From Anthracocystis setariae (taxonomy: Eukaryota; Basidiomycota; Ustilaginomycetes; Ustilaginales; Ustilaginaceae), in contig CAKMXJ010000008.1 of NCBI GenBank assembly GCA_928724745.1, positions 372,001 through 436,000 on the forward strand: a DNA stretch of 64,000 bases, read 5' to 3'. A program made the position numbers and the translations under genes. This document shows positions 12,672 through 20,551 of the stretch, piece after piece; the stretch's first letter is position 1, and the number at the start of each line of letters is the position of its first letter. Under the pieces are notes generated by a model, which saw only the letters and a list, made by a program, of their open reading frames with translations, made no database searches and was not told where the DNA came from.

Positions 12672-13593
12672 TGTTAGTTTCTGCGTGCGTCTAATCACTA
12701 TTGCGTGGTGGGTAGACGTTCGAAGATGACTGCAAACACGCAAGGGCGCGTGTTTGCCACGTTCCTTGACTGACTTCAAGCTGCAATCTTGGAAGTGTGT
12801 TTGGAATCACTAAGTCAATTGTCAATCCTCTTCGGCAATAGAGCCAGCAAGAGCGAAGTGAGATTGACCGCACTTGTCCGAGTAGGCGCTGTAGGGTAGG
12901 AAGCTTGGTAGGTTACTACGTGAGAGACAGACACGCAAGCCTGCGTGTTGGTATGCTTGGTTGTACGTTAGGAACACACCTCGCTGGTTAATGATTCGAT
13001 GGATTTCCGATTACCGCACAGTGAAATGCAACCTCTATATATACATATGGCGTGAGCAGACGTATACGGCTAAGTGACGGCCATCGTCGCTATAGCCTTA
13101 CTCCAGAAGGTCCCATGACCGACGAGTGTTCGTTGCTAAACACGCAATCCTTGCGTGTCTTTCCTCCTCGTTGGGGACATCACCGCGTGTCTCGTTTGTT
13201 GCCCTTTTCTGATTGGTTCGGCCCGACGTGGTCCGCGAATGGGGTTCACCCTTGATTATGAGGGTTACCCATCATCGTCACGGAAGATGGCCTCCAGTGT
13301 GCCTCGAATCTGTGGTGATGGGTGAGATACCTAGGGGAGTGTTGCGGTCAAACACGCGAGCTCGCGTGTATGGTCACCAGCTTGCTCGACTGTTCGGCAG
13401 CGTTGTATTTCCAGGGTCTACCCCCTTGATATTTGGGAATTAATTAAGTTCGTTCCTTCTTAACGTGCGCGCGCGTACCTTGTGGGTTTTTCATCTTGAG
13501 TCGTTGAACCCAAACACGCAAGCTTGCGTATTTGGTGCTGTTGAGCGAGATACTCTGAGTGCGAGATGACTTTCGGAACACCGAGTTCCAACA
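12672..13593 (-). repeat. Copia 3' LTR (element sense)
   Basis: 922 bp. Holds five palindromes: 12732-12757, 12931-12948, 13140-13158, 13352-13369 and 13511-13534. A TATATATA stretch near 13034-13042 reads as a TATA box on the minus strand. Confidence 0.93.
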
Positions 13594-13658
13594 GCCCCCC
13601 TCATCGAGTACTCACTCACACAGCACAGGCAAATCACATAGGGAAAGAATTTGCAATA

Positions 13659-14912
13659 CTACAGGCGGGAACCAGAAGACGTACTTGATGTTTTCTTGGA
13701 GGAGCGCTTCTTTCGGCCTGACTTCTCGCGCTTCTCCAAGGTCTTACGGACCGTACCAGCGATGCGGATGATGTTGGTAGGGTCGTAACACTTCGGCACC
13801 GGCTTGTTGAGGGACTGAGCCGTAATCGCCTCCTTTGCCGCGTCCTCGAGCTCTTCCAGTTGCTCGAGGGCCTCGTCGAGTAAGACCATCTTCTTGGTCC
13901 TAACGCCCGTGTAACCGTTACCTCGGCATAGCTTGCCAGCCACAATGCAGTGGTCGCATTGGTGGGTGGCCGGCGTTCGGGGGCGGCCCTTGTGGTTCGT
14001 GCCAACGCCATACGTGCAATGGACGTTGGCCTGGACACAAGGAGTGCATCCTGGTGTCGAAGAGAGGAATCCTTCCTCTAGATGTTCCGAACGGGCGGGG
14101 AAGTCGGCCACCACGGCTCTGACAGACCCCGCCGGCACGACGAAGCGGTGTTGCTTGTCGAGCGACTTCTCCTCGTCCAAGGGCCCGGACCATGCTTGAT
14201 GAGAGGGGAGGGGCCACTTGATGCCGCCACCCGGGACTTGAGGGCTTGAGGCCGGACGGCGAGGGAAGAGGTGAGCGTCGGCTGCCGGACGGTCAGCTGA
14301 GCTCACTCGTGATGAGCGACGGCGAATGGGGACCGGCCCGTTGTCGTCGTCGTCGTCGTTGTTGTCGTCGTGGGGGATGACTGGAGCATAATCTTCCTCC
14401 GAGTCAAAGCCTCCCAATTGGTCAGATCCGTCGCTGATCCGTAGGAACAAAGGCCGAGGCCTAGCGACGTTGTTGGTGCTGGCCGTCGGTGGCGCAGCAG
14501 CTGTCTCGCTCGTTGGAGCGGAGACTCAAGTGACGGTACCCCTTCTTGGTACGTCCGGGGGCAGCAGATCGTGGATGGTCATGCTAGGTGTAGCAGAGGA
14601 CCCGATGTTGATGGAGGGCGCACCTTCGTTGGTGGCCGCGACGGAGAGATTGGTCATGTCTTCGGCGACAGAGGACCGCGGAGATGGTGGACGTGCCACG
14701 CCCTGGTCGGCGGGCACAGGGGAGTTGGAGGAATGAGCCATGCCGTCGTTGGCAGAGGGCTCGTCGATATCCATGGCTACGTCGCCAGAGGGATTGGATG
14801 TTTCGGTTGCTGGCGTTGGCACAGCGTCGGGGATGGTCATAGTGCGAAGGCGCTTGCGAGCCTCCGTTGCCTTCTTGATGGAAGCGCGTTGTTTGGCGCT
14901 GAGACGTGCCAT
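13659..14912 (-). pseudogene. Accessory ORF of the Copia element, Cys-rich, with one in-frame TGA
   Basis: ATG 14912 opens a frame that meets one TGA at 14528-14526 and then continues in the same frame to 13659 (418 codons in all). The first half starts MARLSAKQRASIKKATEARKR and is Ser/Pro-rich and acidic. The second half has a poly-Asp tract, then two Cys clusters, CTPCVQANVHC and CDHCIVAGKLC (Cys-x2-Cys-x5/6-Cys), then a predicted helix (LDEALEQLEELEDAAKEAI) and a basic C-terminus (GRKKRSSKKTS). The doubled CxxC pattern resembles Zn-binding modules frequent in basidiomycete DNA-binding-like proteins. It lies between pol and the 3' LTR in the sense direction, so it is cargo or an accessory gene. 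No GT-AG intron that keeps frame across the TGA was found. Function unknown. Confidence 0.6.
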
Positions 14913-15335
14913 GTCGATTCTTGGCGACGTTGTTGTTGGTGGTGGTGGTGGAGAGAGAAAAAGGTCGTGAGAGTTGAGTTAGCTACTTCGAGTGTGATGC
15001 AGCTCTCGTCTACAATCCCTTTGTGTGCGGCTGAGCGTGTATGATTGGGTTATCTTACAACACTCAACGTTGTGTGTTGCGGATTGCGCCTCCACGCTTT
15101 GTGAAGCGGATGTGCCGATATGAAGTCCGTGGCGGTGGCGCAGAACTTGGGGATTGCGTATAGTTAAATCCGGAAACACGCAAGGTTGTGTTTTTTGGTG
15201 CCGAGTTGTCGGCTTAGACCCTTTTTCGTATTTTTTGTTTCTTGGTTTTCTTGAAGTTTATATGTTCTGTCGGTTCTGTTAAGGTCGAGTCGGGTCGGGC
15301 GAGTATGTACAAGGTTAACACGCAACGCTTGCGTG
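14913..15335 (-). other. Copia spacer between pol and accessory ORF
   Basis: Non-coding 423 bp carrying three palindromes (15059-15078, 15174-15194, 15317-15337). The last overlaps the pol stop codon (15338-15336). Confidence 0.6.
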
Positions 15336-18300
15336 TTATTCCGCAGCGTCGTTTGCTGGAGATTTGACGTTTAGCGCTTGACGATTTGCTTGAGTCTTGT
15401 TCTTCTCCAAGGCTTTCGTTAGTATATCGGCTAGTTGGTCAGTAGTAGACACGGCTTTTACCGTCAGGACGTTGTTAGTTTGGTATTCGCGTGTGATGTG
15501 ATACTTAAGCCTGAAGTGTTTGGTTCGATTGTGAAATCTTGACTCCTTTGCGAGCTCGATCGCTGCTCTGTTATCGACCATGAGTTGTGTGGGTGTCTCT
15601 ACCTTGAGTCCTATCTCGGCTGCTACCCATCGTGTCCAGATGATCTCTTTGGTAGATTCGGCCATTGCTACGTACTCAGCATAAGTCGTTGAGTCTGTGA
15701 CGATGGACTGAAGTTTTGAGAGCCAGCTGTATGGCATACCCGCGACGGTGTTAACAATTCCCGAGGTTGATCGCGAAGTAGCAGTGTCCCCCGCGTGATC
15801 TGCATCGGTGAATGTTCGAAAATAACGTCCGAAGTCAACACGCAACGTTGCGGGGTTGAGATCAGCGATGCGGGTGTAGTGCAGACCGTGGGAGGCCGTG
15901 CCCTTGAGGTATCGGAGCAAATGCTTTGCTTGCACCATGGCATTATGGTGTGGTTGCGAAAGCTCACGACTGAGTTTCTGAACTGCATAGGCGATGTCGG
16001 GGCGTGTACAGGTTGCAATGTAAAGGACCTGGCCGACGAGACTTCTGTAGGTAGAGTGTTTGGTGGGCGAAAGGGGATCTCCTTCTTTGAGGTCGTGAGT
16101 TGGGTTGATGGGTGTATGCGTGATGTTTGCACACGCAAGGCCGTAGGTTTCCAGAAGTCGATGAATGTAACTCGTCTGTGTCAGATGAATGGTTTGTGCG
16201 GTTTGGACGACTTGGATGCCTAAGATGTAGTCCAGAAGTTCACCACCAGTCATCTTAAAATGTCTGCGAAGTTCCTCCATAACACTTCGGGCCGAGTCTT
16301 GTGTTTTAGCGAAGATTAAGATGTCGTCGACGTATAGTGTTAGGATGATGGGTTGCTCTTCAACACGCGACGTTGCATGTTTGAAGTAGAGGGCTGAGTC
16401 GTGCTTGCTACGTGTAAAGCCCATTTCATGTAGTGTGGAGTCGGCTTTGTGGTACCAGGTCCGACCAGCTTGCTTGAGTCCGTACAACGACTTGTTGAGT
16501 TTGCAGACCTGGCCTTGGGTGGTGCCCCGAGGGTCGTCGATTGTGGGTGGTGGCCTCATGTATAGGTCCACATCGATCTCGCCGTTCAAGTACGCGGTAG
16601 CCACGTCCATCTGATAGATGCTCCAACCCATTTGCAATGAGATGATCATGAGGAACCGCAAGGTGGATAGTTTGATAACTGGTGCAAAGGTTTCGTCGTA
16701 GTCGATCCCGTGTTTCTGGGCGAAGCCTTGTGCCACGAGGCGAGCCTTGTACTTGTCAATTGAGCCGTCGGATTTACGTTTCACCTTGAAGACCCACCTG
16801 CTCCCAATGATGTTGGCCCCGCTAGGGGGCTTTACCAGACGCCAAGTATCGTTTTCGCTGTGAGAGTTGAGTTCTTTGTCGATAGCTTCTTTCCATAGCG
16901 GCCAGTCTGGGCGTTGATGGGCTTGCTTGATTGTTCGAGGTTCGTCGTCGAGTAATCCAACGCTGTCTGGTTCGTCAACACGCAACGTCGCGTGTTCCAA
17001 CTCATCGTTGAATTCTTGAATCGCGAGGGCTTGTAGACGCGGCGACGTCGGCGGGGAACCTAGCGGGGTTGCCAGTCCTTGTTCTCTTTCTTGTTTGGTG
17101 AGGTACGGCCACCTGCTAAAGCTGCCATCGTTCCCTTCATCATTTCCTTGACTTGGAGCTTGCGTGAGCGGGGCAGGCTGCTGTTCCGAACTCCAGACGT
17201 CGCGTGTTGGCAAACCGAGTTGTTTTTCTGGAGATCCTTTATAGGGGAAAAACTCTTCGTCGAAAGTTGCGTGCACTTGTGTCAGGTACTTCCTTTCGAC
17301 GTGATCGTACAACTTATAAGCCTTAGTTCCTGCTGCGATCCCTAGGTAGACACATGGGACAGCTCGGTTGTCAAGTGCGGACCTCCTCTCCGTCGGTATG
17401 TGGGCATATGCTGCACAGCCGAAGGTTCGTACGAGGGAGAGATCTGGCGATTTGTCGTACAAGAGCTTGATCGGGATCTTGTCGCCGTTTCCCTTTGTTG
17501 GAAGTCTGTTGTTTAAGTAAGTCGCATGAAGTAAAGCGTCGCCCCATAGTGTGTCAGGAGCATGGGATTGTATCAACAAGCAACGTACTGTGTTGAACAA
17601 CGTTCTGTTCATTCTTTCCGCAACACCATTCTGTTCGGGTGCAAATGGGGAGGTGAACTCATGTAGGATTCCGTGAGAAGCGAGGAAGGTATCCATTTCC
17701 GTACTTGTGTACTCTCCTCCGTTGTCGGATCTGAGCTTCTTGAGTGGATATCCGGTTTGCTTCTCCATGGTCGTTTTATACTCCTGGAGGCAGCCAAACA
17801 CCTCACTTTTGCGGGCAATCAGGTACACCATCGTGTGTCGAGAGAAGTCGTCGATGAATGTGACTGCGTATCTGTATCCTTGAGGGGTTTCGGTGGGGAT
17901 CGGTCCTTTGACGTCTGTGTGGATTAAGCCAAGTGGGTGTTCAACACGCGACGTTGCGTGTTTGAACGACTGCTTGTGGGACTTGGCAATCTCGCAAGTC
18001 TCGCAAAGTTGATGTTTTTTTTTCGCACTCAACGTGATTGCTGGGACCTCTCTTGCAATTTCTTCTAGACGACGTTCTCCAGGGTGGCCGAGACGCCTGT
18101 GCCATCGATCAGGCCCTGCCTTGTGTTCTGCGGCTAGTCCTGCGAAGTCAACACCAGCTTGGTCAACGTAGGTGAGCGGTCCAATGTGTACACCCCTGCA
18201 GGTGATACGGCCACTCTTTGTCCTTGCTACGGTTTCTTTGTCGTTGGTGGTGATCTCTGCCTTCTTCCTCATCACTCCTGTGGATAGGAGGTTGACATTG

Positions 18301-19625
18301 AAGGACGGGATGTAAGCAACGTTCGTTAGCATGATCTTGTTGACGTCTCCTTGTCCGACGTTGACGTCTAGGTGCACTGTGCCGACGCCTTCGACTTGGA
18401 CGGGTACGTCATTGGCCACCCAGATAGGTTTCATTGACACGCCTGTACGGAGGTCTGTAAAAAGGGAACGATTGCAACAGATATGCCTGCTGGCTCCTGA
18501 ATCCATGAGCCACATGGTTGAGCGTGGATGGGTAAACTCGCTAACGGAGTAGGCGTTCTCGTTGTTGACGTTGCCATCCTTTACGCAATCTTGCGTGTTC
18601 TCTTGCTTCGTTTTCTTTGGGCATTTGTTCTGGTAATGTCCCTTTTCGTTGCAATTGAAGCAAGTTATTTCTTCGATGGGAGTTCTTTTCCTACGACGTT
18701 GCGTGTTTGGCCTCTTCGTTTTCTTTCCGTCGCTGGCAAAGTAGGCTGACTGGTTTTGCTTTGTTTGTTGGTCCAGACCGTGTGAGTGGAGTCCGAGGCG
18801 TAGTTCTTCGCTACGCAACCTTGTGACTATGGAGTCAAACTCCACTTTCTCATCAATGTGTGCTTTCGCCATCGTGAACCTCTCGTTTTCATCTCCTTCG
18901 CGGTGGATGATCATCTGAGTTTGCTCCCGGCGAGCTCTGTACGTTTCCATGATTTGCGACGCGATGTTCTCATACTCCTTTCGTAGTCCCTTCATGAGGA
19001 CGCTGTATTTCTTGTGATGGCTTATGTCGTAGCCTGCCAACGTCAGTTGTTCGGCGAGCTGCTTGATTCTGCCAACGAAGCCGTCGATGGTCCGTTTCTC
19101 TTGTCTGAGGCTGTTGAACTCGGTCTCCATTTCCTCGAGTTGCCATCGCATTGACTTGGCAAATCGGTCTTCGAGAGTGATCCAGATGGTCCTGGCATCC
19201 TCGAGATCGCTGATCGTGTGCTTTATGTCGATTGACATGCAGCTTCGAAGCATCCCGCATGCTGTGAGATTGGCGTTGAGCCATTCCATGTACGTGGGGT
19301 CGGACTCCGGAGGTTTGGGGAAGATCCCTTTGATGATTCCGTAGACGCGGATGCCCTTTTGCATGAGGACATCTATAGTTCTGTCCTTCCACGTGTAGTA
19401 ATCCTTCGCTTGCTCGAGTTTCGGCAAGCGGAGCTTCGTTTGGTCGATCTCCGTGCCCATCGTAAACGCGACGTTGCGTGTTAGTGCTTCAGGGGATGGG
19501 GTTAGAGATAGGGTAGATTCTTCGTCGTCTCCACTGGGTGTTCCAGTAATCGAATCGGAGCGACGGGTTCGCGATCGGGTTCCTTTGTAGCTACCTTCCG
19601 AGTTTCCCGTAGGCTTTGGGCTCAT
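15336..19625 (-). CDS. Copia Gag-Pol polyprotein
   Basis: 1429 aa, uninterrupted. Order of parts: Gag-like region; zinc knuckle CFNCNEKGHYQNKC (~322); aspartic protease DSGAS (~372); integrase zinc region (WHRRLGHP ... CETCEIAKS, from ~503); integrase catalytic core (HTDVKGP, FIDDFSR, LRSDNGGEY, PEQNGVAER); RT (FKVKRKSDGSIDKYKARLVAQG, QMDVATAYLNGEI, LYVDDILIFA near 1093); RNase H (TDADHAGD, STTYAEYVA, DNRAAIELA, LADILTKAL). The PR-IN-RT-RH order defines Ty1/Copia. No frameshift separates gag and pol. Peptides such as HATSRVE, HATLRVD, LTRNVAF and NTQRRR are encoded by copies of the DNA palindrome described elsewhere. The start codon lies within the primer-binding site. Confidence 0.95.
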   Translation of the reverse strand: MSPKPTGNSEGSYKGTRSRTRRSDSITGTPSGDDEESTLSLTPSPEALTRNVAFTMGTEIDQTKLRLPKLEQAKDYYTWKDRTIDVLMQKGIRVYGIIKGIFPKPPESDPTYMEWLNANLTACGMLRSCMSIDIKHTISDLEDARTIWITLEDRFAKSMRWQLEEMETEFNSLRQEKRTIDGFVGRIKQLAEQLTLAGYDISHHKKYSVLMKGLRKEYENIASQIMETYRARREQTQMIIHREGDENERFTMAKAHIDEKVEFDSIVTRLRSEELRLGLHSHGLDQQTKQNQSAYFASDGKKTKRPNTQRRRKRTPIEEITCFNCNEKGHYQNKCPKKTKQENTQDCVKDGNVNNENAYSVSEFTHPRSTMWLMDSGASRHICCNRSLFTDLRTGVSMKPIWVANDVPVQVEGVGTVHLDVNVGQGDVNKIMLTNVAYIPSFNVNLLSTGVMRKKAEITTNDKETVARTKSGRITCRGVHIGPLTYVDQAGVDFAGLAAEHKAGPDRWHRRLGHPGERRLEEIAREVPAITLSAKKKHQLCETCEIAKSHKQSFKHATSRVEHPLGLIHTDVKGPIPTETPQGYRYAVTFIDDFSRHTMVYLIARKSEVFGCLQEYKTTMEKQTGYPLKKLRSDNGGEYTSTEMDTFLASHGILHEFTSPFAPEQNGVAERMNRTLFNTVRCLLIQSHAPDTLWGDALLHATYLNNRLPTKGNGDKIPIKLLYDKSPDLSLVRTFGCAAYAHIPTERRSALDNRAVPCVYLGIAAGTKAYKLYDHVERKYLTQVHATFDEEFFPYKGSPEKQLGLPTRDVWSSEQQPAPLTQAPSQGNDEGNDGSFSRWPYLTKQEREQGLATPLGSPPTSPRLQALAIQEFNDELEHATLRVDEPDSVGLLDDEPRTIKQAHQRPDWPLWKEAIDKELNSHSENDTWRLVKPPSGANIIGSRWVFKVKRKSDGSIDKYKARLVAQGFAQKHGIDYDETFAPVIKLSTLRFLMIISLQMGWSIYQMDVATAYLNGEIDVDLYMRPPPTIDDPRGTTQGQVCKLNKSLYGLKQAGRTWYHKADSTLHEMGFTRSKHDSALYFKHATSRVEEQPIILTLYVDDILIFAKTQDSARSVMEELRRHFKMTGGELLDYILGIQVVQTAQTIHLTQTSYIHRLLETYGLACANITHTPINPTHDLKEGDPLSPTKHSTYRSLVGQVLYIATCTRPDIAYAVQKLSRELSQPHHNAMVQAKHLLRYLKGTASHGLHYTRIADLNPATLRVDFGRYFRTFTDADHAGDTATSRSTSGIVNTVAGMPYSWLSKLQSIVTDSTTYAEYVAMAESTKEIIWTRWVAAEIGLKVETPTQLMVDNRAAIELAKESRFHNRTKHFRLKYHITREYQTNNVLTVKAVSTTDQLADILTKALEKNKTQANRQALNVKSPANDAAE
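15837..19483. repeat. Palindrome copies within the Copia coding region
   Basis: Copies of the AACACGCAACGTTGCGTGTT family inside pol: 15837-15857, 16131-16137 (half), 16362-16381, 16977-16996, 17196-17208 (half), 17943-17962, 18583-18599, 18694-18707, 19464-19483. Most keep the central ACGT or AATCTT and GCGTGT arms. They encode HATSRV-type, TRNV-type or NTQR-type peptides depending on frame. Confidence 0.85.
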
Positions 19626-19629
19626 AACC
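19618..19629 (-). promoter_or_regulatory. Primer-binding site matching the initiator tRNA-Met anticodon arm
   Basis: On the minus strand the first bases after the 5' LTR are GGTTATGAGCCC. This is complementary to the anticodon stem-loop of fungal initiator tRNA-Met (GGGCUCAUAACC), the half-tRNA priming used by Copia and Ty5. The ATG inside this site (19625-19623) is the polyprotein start codon. Confidence 0.75.
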
Positions 19630-20551
19630 TGTTAGTTTCTGCGTGCGTCTAATCACTATTGCGTGGTGGGTAGACGTTCGAAGATGACTGCAAACACGCA
19701 AGGGCGCGTGTTTGCCACGTTCCTTGACTGACTTCAAGCTGCGATCTTGGAAGTGTGTTTGGAATCACTAAGTCAATTGTCAATCCTCTTCGGCAATAGA
19801 GCCAGCAAGAGCGAAGTGAGATTGACCGCACTTGTCCGAGTAGGCGCTGTAGGGTAGGAAGCTTGGTAGGTTACTACGTGAGAGACAGACACGCAAGCCT
19901 GCGTGTTGGTATGCTTGGTTGTACGTTAGGAACACACCTCGCTGGTTAATGATTCGATGGATTTCCGATTACCGCACAGTGAAATGCAACCTCTATATAT
20001 ACATATGGCGTGAGCAGACGTATACGGCTAAGTGACGGCCATCGTCGCTATAGCCTTACTCCAGAAGGTCCCATGACCGACGAGTGTTCGTTGCTAAACA
20101 CGCAATCCTTGCGTGTCTTTCCTCCTCGTTGGGGACATCACCGCGTGTCTCGTTTGTTGCCCTTTTCTGATTGGTTCGGCCCGACGTGGTCCGCGAATGG
20201 GGTTCACCCTTGATTATGAGGGTTACCCATCATCGTCACGGAAGATGGCCTCCAGTGTGCCTCGAATCTGTGGTGATGGGTGAGATACCTAGGGGAGTGT
20301 TGCGGTCAAACACGCGAGCTCGCGTGTATGGTCACCAGCTTGCTCGACTGTTCGGCAGCGTTGTATTTCCAGGGTCTACCCCCTTGATATTTGGGAATTA
20401 ATTAAGTTCGTTCCTTCTTAACGTGCGCGCGCGTACCTTGTGGGTTTTTCATCTTGAGTCGTTGAACCCAAACACGCAAGCTTGCGTATTTGGTGCTGTT
20501 GAGCGAGATACTCTGAGTGCGAGATGACTTTCGGAACACCGAGTTCCAACA
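19630..20551 (-). repeat. Copia 5' LTR (element sense)
   Basis: 922 bp, matching the other LTR throughout except one visible substitution (19743). Contains the same five palindromes at +6958 bp. Its left end lies 4 bp from the polyprotein start codon. Confidence 0.93.
19990..20005 (-). promoter_or_regulatory. Putative TATA box of the Copia element
   Basis: The CTCTATATATACATATG region in the 5' LTR reads as a TATA box on the minus strand about 360 bp before the LTR end. That is compatible with a transcript start inside the LTR. There is no direct evidence of the start site. Confidence 0.4.

Follow-up and report, generated by a model that had tools for sequence, protein, structure and literature searches.

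Copia retrotransposons of Anthracocystis setariae carry family-private DNA words that may be read by an element-encoded cysteine-cluster protein

What maintains a 20-bp palindrome along the whole length of a retrotransposon, its coding region included? This question is raised by a Copia element within a window of 64,000 nucleotides (the whole stretch of DNA that was analysed; positions 372,001 to 436,000 of contig CAKMXJ010000008.1, GenBank assembly GCA_928724745.1) from the basidiomycete fungus Anthracocystis setariae. The palindrome occupies the long terminal repeats (LTRs) of this family A element, its pol gene, and the spacer between pol and a downstream open reading frame (ORF2). Among the seven Copia families compared in this genome, six are rich in a private word of their own, closely related families hold different words at homologous places, and all seven have an ORF2 with a cysteine cluster downstream of pol. 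The best explanation of the whole, to which we assign a probability of roughly 0.6, is that a zinc-cluster protein of each family would mark the family's own DNA along its length.

The element shows the features of the Ty1/Copia class, namely LTRs (922 bp each, with 1 difference between the pair), a target-site duplication, and an integrase ahead of the RVT_2 domain within one polyprotein (Table 1). The palindromes that the initial annotation had reported in the LTRs, spacer and pol were all recovered; allowing no more than three mismatches in 14 arm positions, the LTR has 5 sites, pol 8 and the spacer 3, and ORF2 has none. The consensus is a perfect palindrome, as had been described, but many individual copies are imperfect, those at 16131, 17189 and 18694 being half sites, and the supposed HAT peptide at 15837 actually reads NPATLRV. 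The statement that no copies occur elsewhere in the window holds for all 18 places matching at least 15 positions of the 20-bp consensus and for all 11 exact places of ACACGC-N(2-10)-GCGTGT, every one of them inside the element. The arm ACACGC (with at most one mismatch) is common to seven distinct dyads, compared with a maximum of three in 40 dinucleotide shuffles, and AACACGC occurs 10 times in family A pol versus 1.6 on average over 200 synonymous-codon shuffles. Codon alignments confirm that the word is read in all three codon phases (sites aa50, aa345 and aa557, by amino acid number).

Equal density of the motif in ordinary DNA of the species would have deprived it of meaning. Instead, the pattern ACACGC..GCGTGT was found at 133 places of the 21.5-Mb genome and its reversed control at 9, and 14 control blocks of ordinary window DNA contain 0 dyads of family A or of its relatives B and C. 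Among 50 forward genome places listed, 42 were assigned to LTRs or pol of the A clade by the coordinates of LTR and reverse transcriptase (RT) matches, and 8 are elsewhere or uncertain. Across the genome, the LTR has 62 matches, RT 71 and ORF2 59. A possible connection with HobS or centromeres was dropped because the copies of the element are dispersed over many contigs.

Within the A clade, the sites are better preserved than the sequence around them. In 26 distinct LTRs compared with the window LTR (the set includes some pairs from one element; L011 and pieces shorter than 450 bp were dropped), the arms are 93.8% identical, the cores 89.7% and the rest 81.8%. CpG was kept in 266 of 300 cells inside sites versus 750 of 1242 outside. 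Between the window element and a second family A element (A2), pol differs at 6 of 84 arm positions versus 494 of 4206 positions elsewhere. A search for compensatory arm changes between LTRs, which had been proposed as a check, yielded one symmetric change (L017); CpG decay on both strands explains it equally well, and it is given no weight as a sign of pairing.

We grouped the related families by RT identity to A: A 88-100%, B 76-78%, C 67-71%, D 56-58%, E 45-46%, F 43-44% and G 43%. One element was read per family and two for A; most families are represented by a single copy, a second B copy (L065) was left out of the counts, and the G stretch was read without its LTRs. In pol, B is 71.5% and C 65.4% identical to A. 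The arms are ACACGC..GCGTGT in A, ACAYTC..GARTGT in B and AACCCG..CGGGTT in C, and the words of the remaining families are ACCGACA in D (tentative), CGAAGTC in E and TGCGCA in F. Counts of a family's word in its own element are 19 and 16 for the two A elements, 19 for B, 25 for C, 22 for D, 18 for E and 64 for F, with all other cells of the matrix between 0 and 5. Since the elements counted are also those from which the words were chosen, the weight of the matrix rests on null comparisons. Genome-wide, the B pattern occurs 83 times and the C pattern 141 times, versus 0 for each when reversed, while triple clusters of the F word number 36 versus 2 reversed. In a synonymous-codon shuffle test covering A, A2, B, C, D, E and F, the commonest pol 7-mer lies above the 95% point in every element but B. 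Dyads with a common arm are more numerous than in any shuffle in A, A2, B, C and F. The top 7-mer occurs 6-9 times in eight ordinary window blocks and 8-25 times in elements A-F, B having the lowest count because its word has two forms. The E word is not palindromic and stands on both strands (10 and 8).

In family F, the copy on contig C5 has 64 TGCGCA in 4.3 kb (L064 868-5210), approximately one every 70 bp and in all frames, and the whole fetched stretch has 65, of which 0 are in the flanks. The F polyprotein contains 13.6% alanine, compared with 5.5-7.6% in the other six families. A tandem repeat with TGCGCA was also seen apparently outside this family, at C10:781257, C23:47423 and C32:692025.

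Evidence for sequence-specific reading comes from closely related families that hold different words at the same places. At three pol sites (A aa557, aa879 and aa1084), A, B and C palindromes occupy homologous codons. The peptides are KHATSRV, QHSVLSV and RNPTSGS in A, B and C, respectively, at aa557; EHATLRV, EHSVSDV and ENPTSGL at aa879; and KHATSRV, KHSVPNV and KNPTSGS at aa1084. The peptide is dictated by the DNA word, with repeats of HAT.RV in A, HS(V/A)..V in B and NPT(S/T)G in C. It had been noted that palindrome-free relatives with the same amino acids would reduce the motif to ordinary divergence; here the B and C peptides differ and encode palindromes of their own. Altogether, for 5 of the 7 B sites in pol, one of the 8 A sites is no more than one codon away in the codon alignment, whereas uniform random placement of B sites gave at most 3 coincidences in 200,000 draws, a null that ignores possible confinement of sites to variable stretches. 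For C (no more than 4 mismatches), 4 of 9 pol sites fall on A sites. In the LTRs, site offsets are 72/234/445/655/850 in A and 76/212/447/663/859 in B, so that four of five agree within 9 bp and one is 22 bp apart, despite poor alignment of the LTRs themselves.

These alignments bear directly on the suggestion that a mini-palindrome inserts and multiplies inside the element. The many near-identical copies would suit such a process, and the more distant families (D-G) are gapped relative to A at aa1084, with gaps also at aa1259, so insertion in an older ancestor is possible at aa1084. However, A and B are gap-free at the four clearest shared pol sites, including the three above (C has one additional codon beside aa557); D, E, F and G are ungapped relative to A at aa557; and different words stand at the same codons. 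We therefore regard multiplication by insertion as extremely improbable. That the pol sites lie in variable stretches, some of them gapped in D-G, indicates that the polyprotein tolerates them.

The initial annotation had left the choice between hairpins and recognition by a protein dimer. The arms of A, B and C could pair as short stems, and such palindromes would then act in the genomic RNA, as hairpins or as packaging signals. Against this stands the conservation of the primary sequence itself at the sites of a family, beyond what complementarity demands, together with the occurrence of the E word on both strands and the nature of the F word, a 6-bp palindrome that cannot form a hairpin. 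An RNA role is accordingly very improbable. Different palindromes at homologous LTR and pol positions in A, B and C argue for a family-specific factor that reads sequence, as the dimer proposal implied, and on the comparative evidence such a factor very probably reads the sites on DNA.

The reader of the sites is probably ORF2, judging from its sequence and its distribution. In families A-F its core has six cysteines, CX2CX6C-X(10-19)-CX2CX6C, with 15-19 loop residues in A-E and 10 in F; basic residues and a possible helix (the helix from a low-confidence model) come after this core. Cysteines 2 and 3 are separated by VQANVH in A, ETRRIL in B and QLIGVH in C. In G (L066 5065-6399) the first cysteine half is spaced differently. 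The window copy is interrupted by an in-frame stop, and other copies have open frames. ORF2 is under purifying selection in the A clade, with a ratio of nonsynonymous to synonymous substitution rates (dN/dS) of 0.07-0.16 over the last 219 codons. Between A and A2, identity is 68% in ORF2 and 92.6% in pol. In the same pair (window 13659-20551 versus L059), dS is 0.56 in pol and saturated in ORF2, at 3.4. Since dS of ORF2 far exceeds that of pol, part of the divergence may be due to exchange between lineages, and A and A2 have the look of mosaics in which either pol or ORF2 was swapped.

ORF2 type and word type go together. Seven of 8 loci with an A-type ORF2 have 5-6 A dyads, and all 12 loci with a B-type ORF2 have 4-9 B dyads. 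The B-type loci score 0-1 as A, and the seven A-type loci score 2-5 as B because the A and B arms differ by one letter.

A different candidate for the reader is a set of host proteins (transcription factors, silencers or chromatin proteins), each family having drifted to a different host factor. Host factors are commonly bound to retroelement LTRs, which fits this view, as do the G element, with an ORF2 and no detected word, and the F copy on C5, with the word and no ORF2. Yet on this view no fewer than three related families would require separate host factors, and their sites would have had to change in concert at homologous positions. In addition, none of the 14 blocks of ordinary window DNA has an A, B or C dyad. 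We consider host readers unlikely.

Several observations weigh against a reading of the words by ORF2 or against the words themselves. The two cases just named belong here: G resembles ordinary DNA, with no saturating word in the stretch read (L066; its LTRs lie outside it), and the F copy that was counted is without ORF2, although a relative on C8 (L067, C8:351700-352900) has one. A solitary ORF2 at L039 (C11:152263-155901), 72% like that of A, has no palindromes around it. Conservation of third positions in the pol arms between A and A2 is not significant (5/29 versus 379/1401 differences, p 0.29). The best pol 7-mer of B is within its shuffles (6 versus a 95% point of 7), although its best 8-mer exceeds them (6 versus 4). 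No excess of shared-arm dyads over shuffles was found in D, E or G, and the D word is strand-biased (ACCGACA 10 to 1); since an amino-acid cause could give this bias, we treat the D word as tentative. The likeness of ORF2 to Zn2Cys6 domains stays below the curated Pfam cut-off of 21 bits for PF00172 (best score 16.5 in D, 14.7 in A, and no listed match for E, F or G), so ORF2 is not filed as a member. Profile matches in the PDB to Lac9, Gal4 and AlcR are not significant (E 0.33 to 4.5), with ribosomal L37e ahead of them at 0.019, and the single-sequence structure prediction of ORF2 has a predicted local distance difference test (pLDDT) score of 43.7. Likewise, no Pfam family matched the window ORF2, sequence searches of the PDB with ORF2 profiles and the F domain gave no significant match, and a search of 5.8 billion proteins with ORF2 (L059) gave none at E 0.001 among 7994 candidates scored.

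The L039 locus has an open frame of 359 aa, approximately 50 bp of LTR and no pol that we found, and lies between two other reading frames, one of them Atg6/Beclin-like (by eye). It may be either a truncated copy or a domesticated ORF2.

We propose that each family encodes, 3' of pol, a small cysteine-cluster protein that would recognise the family's private word in double-stranded DNA. The palindromic word of A, B and C fits a dimer and points to one bound on DNA, and with words spread over LTR, spacer and pol the protein could mark most of the element. Selection on the sites would be forceful enough to impose particular amino acids where the polyprotein is tolerant, and a shift in the specificity of the protein would cause the sites to shift together. 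As for purpose, the protein may hold the element's chromatin in an open, transcribed state in the face of host silencing, which is the role of VANC in VANDAL elements. This is tentative and argued from analogy, anti-silencing or activation being one possible purpose among others; marking the whole element, coding region included, exceeds the need of a promoter and so suits a role in chromatin. Host domain matches comprise four C5-methylases (on 3 contigs) and one Argonaute/Piwi, so there may be silencing to resist.

ORF2 could also bind the words for another end, such as repression or copy-number control, guidance of cDNA or integrase, or recognition of its own copies. Two or three sites stand in the short spacer just ahead of ORF2 in A, A2, B and C, as for self-regulation, and within the ORF2 gene itself A, A2 and B have no sites (C has 4 weak ones with 3 mismatches, and the C8 copy of F holds several TGCGCA). 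Sites across the whole of pol, however, exceed the needs of promoter control, and a purpose of this kind has a limited chance of being the right one.

A broader and still tentative interpretation of the ORF2 model is a self-address code of fungal Copia elements, in which a family's private word along its whole length would be read by its own cysteine-cluster protein and keeping the word would rewrite the polyprotein (compare the alanine content of F). Words and readers that diverge together would insulate families from each other's control, and how elements that share a genome keep their controls separate can be put to a direct test in these families. If this is correct, sequence-specific control by a transposon's own protein would no longer be confined to plant DNA transposons but would include fungal retrotransposons, where the protein is a different one. 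The families would also provide a natural experiment in the coevolution of protein and DNA, with homologous sites and with several words and readers in a single genome, and a case of DNA-level sites overriding protein-level constraint in a polyprotein.

Table 1. Features of the family A element, in window coordinates
Feature	Position	Strand	Basis
Copia LTR retrotransposon, family A	12672..20551	(-)	LTR pair, target-site duplication GAGAT on both sides, Pfam domains
3' LTR, five palindromes (centres near 12745, 12940, 13149, 13361, 13523)	12672..13593	(-)	
5' LTR, same five palindromes at +6958	19630..20551	(-)	
gag-pol ORF, 1429 aa: gag, zinc knuckle, integrase, RVT_2	15336..19625	(-)	Pfam
ORF2, cysteine-cluster protein	13659..14912	(-)	Between pol and 3' LTR; in-frame stop 14526-14528
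ORF2 cysteine cluster, CX2CX6C-X19-CX2CX6C	13884..14066	(-)	
LTR palindrome 5 (sense order)	12735..12754	.	Consensus match
LTR palindrome 4	12930..12949	.	Consensus match
LTR palindrome 3	13139..13159	.	Consensus match
LTR palindrome 2	13351..13370	.	Consensus match
LTR palindrome 1	13513..13532	.	Consensus match
Spacer palindrome, pol-ORF2 interval	15059..15078	.	
Spacer palindrome (second)	15175..15194	.	
Spacer palindrome extending into pol stop codon	15317..15337	.	
pol palindrome aa1259, NPATLRV; homologous B site	15837..15856	.	Codon alignment
pol palindrome aa1084, KHATSRV; homologous B and C sites	16362..16381	.	Codon alignment
pol palindrome aa879, EHATLRV; homologous B and C sites	16977..16996	.	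Codon alignment
pol half site aa808, TRDVW; C-type palindrome in C at the same place	17189..17208	.	
pol palindrome aa557, KHATSRV; homologous B and C sites	17943..17962	.	Codon alignment
pol palindrome aa345, NTQDCVK; homologous B site	18580..18599	.	Codon alignment
pol half site NTQR; opposite B site, gapped stretch	18694..18707	.	
pol palindrome aa50, LTRNVAFT	19463..19482	.	Codon alignment

The closest known parallel is found among the VANDALs, which are Mutator-like DNA transposons. In a report on VANC and VANDAL in Arabidopsis (PMC5735166), short words (YAGTATTAY for VANC21 and AGTTGTCC for VANC6) are concentrated in one transposon family and scarce in other transposable elements, the element encodes its own reader, and the authors take reader and words to change jointly. 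The words are described there as lying mainly in non-coding tandem repeats, in one orientation. The Copia families resemble this system in having a family-private word that is enriched in the element and rare elsewhere (word matrix, 14 empty blocks and genome counts). They are unlike it in having Copia domains in gag-pol rather than a Mutator-type transposase, words dispersed at conserved positions, many of them in pol, rather than in tandem repeats, and as candidate reader a cysteine-cluster ORF, with palindromic words in A-C. Because protein, element class and word placement differ, we do not count the Copia system as a member.

ORF2 of families A-F shares with fungal Zn2Cys6 regulators such as Gal4 and AlcR the two CX2CX6C halves, a possible helix after the cluster and palindromic sites. 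The loop between the halves is canonically 5-12 residues in Zn2Cys6 proteins and 16 in AlcR; ORF2 differs from Gal4 and AlcR in its loop length, in its Pfam score below the cut-off and in being borne by a retrotransposon. TnpA of maize En/Spm is also encoded by its element, binds a short repeated motif in that element and counters inactivation, and is in this respect like the role proposed here for ORF2; unlike the present case, its motifs lie only near the ends of a DNA transposon, and the protein is unrelated. As an extra ORF beside gag and pol, ORF2 resembles the additional ORFs of LTR retrotransposons treated in a review (PMC7264820), in which a term search gave no hits for DNA-binding, zinc or transcription factor. 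In a literature search by title and start of abstract, we recognised no motif-saturated LTR elements and no Copia zinc-cluster ORF among the matches listed; the nearest fungal case among them, as far as its record goes, is that of fungal DNA transposons with a TET/JBP gene (PMC12730594). The best named fungal relatives of the RT piece, among the matches listed, are from Ustilago esculenta, amid many plant matches.

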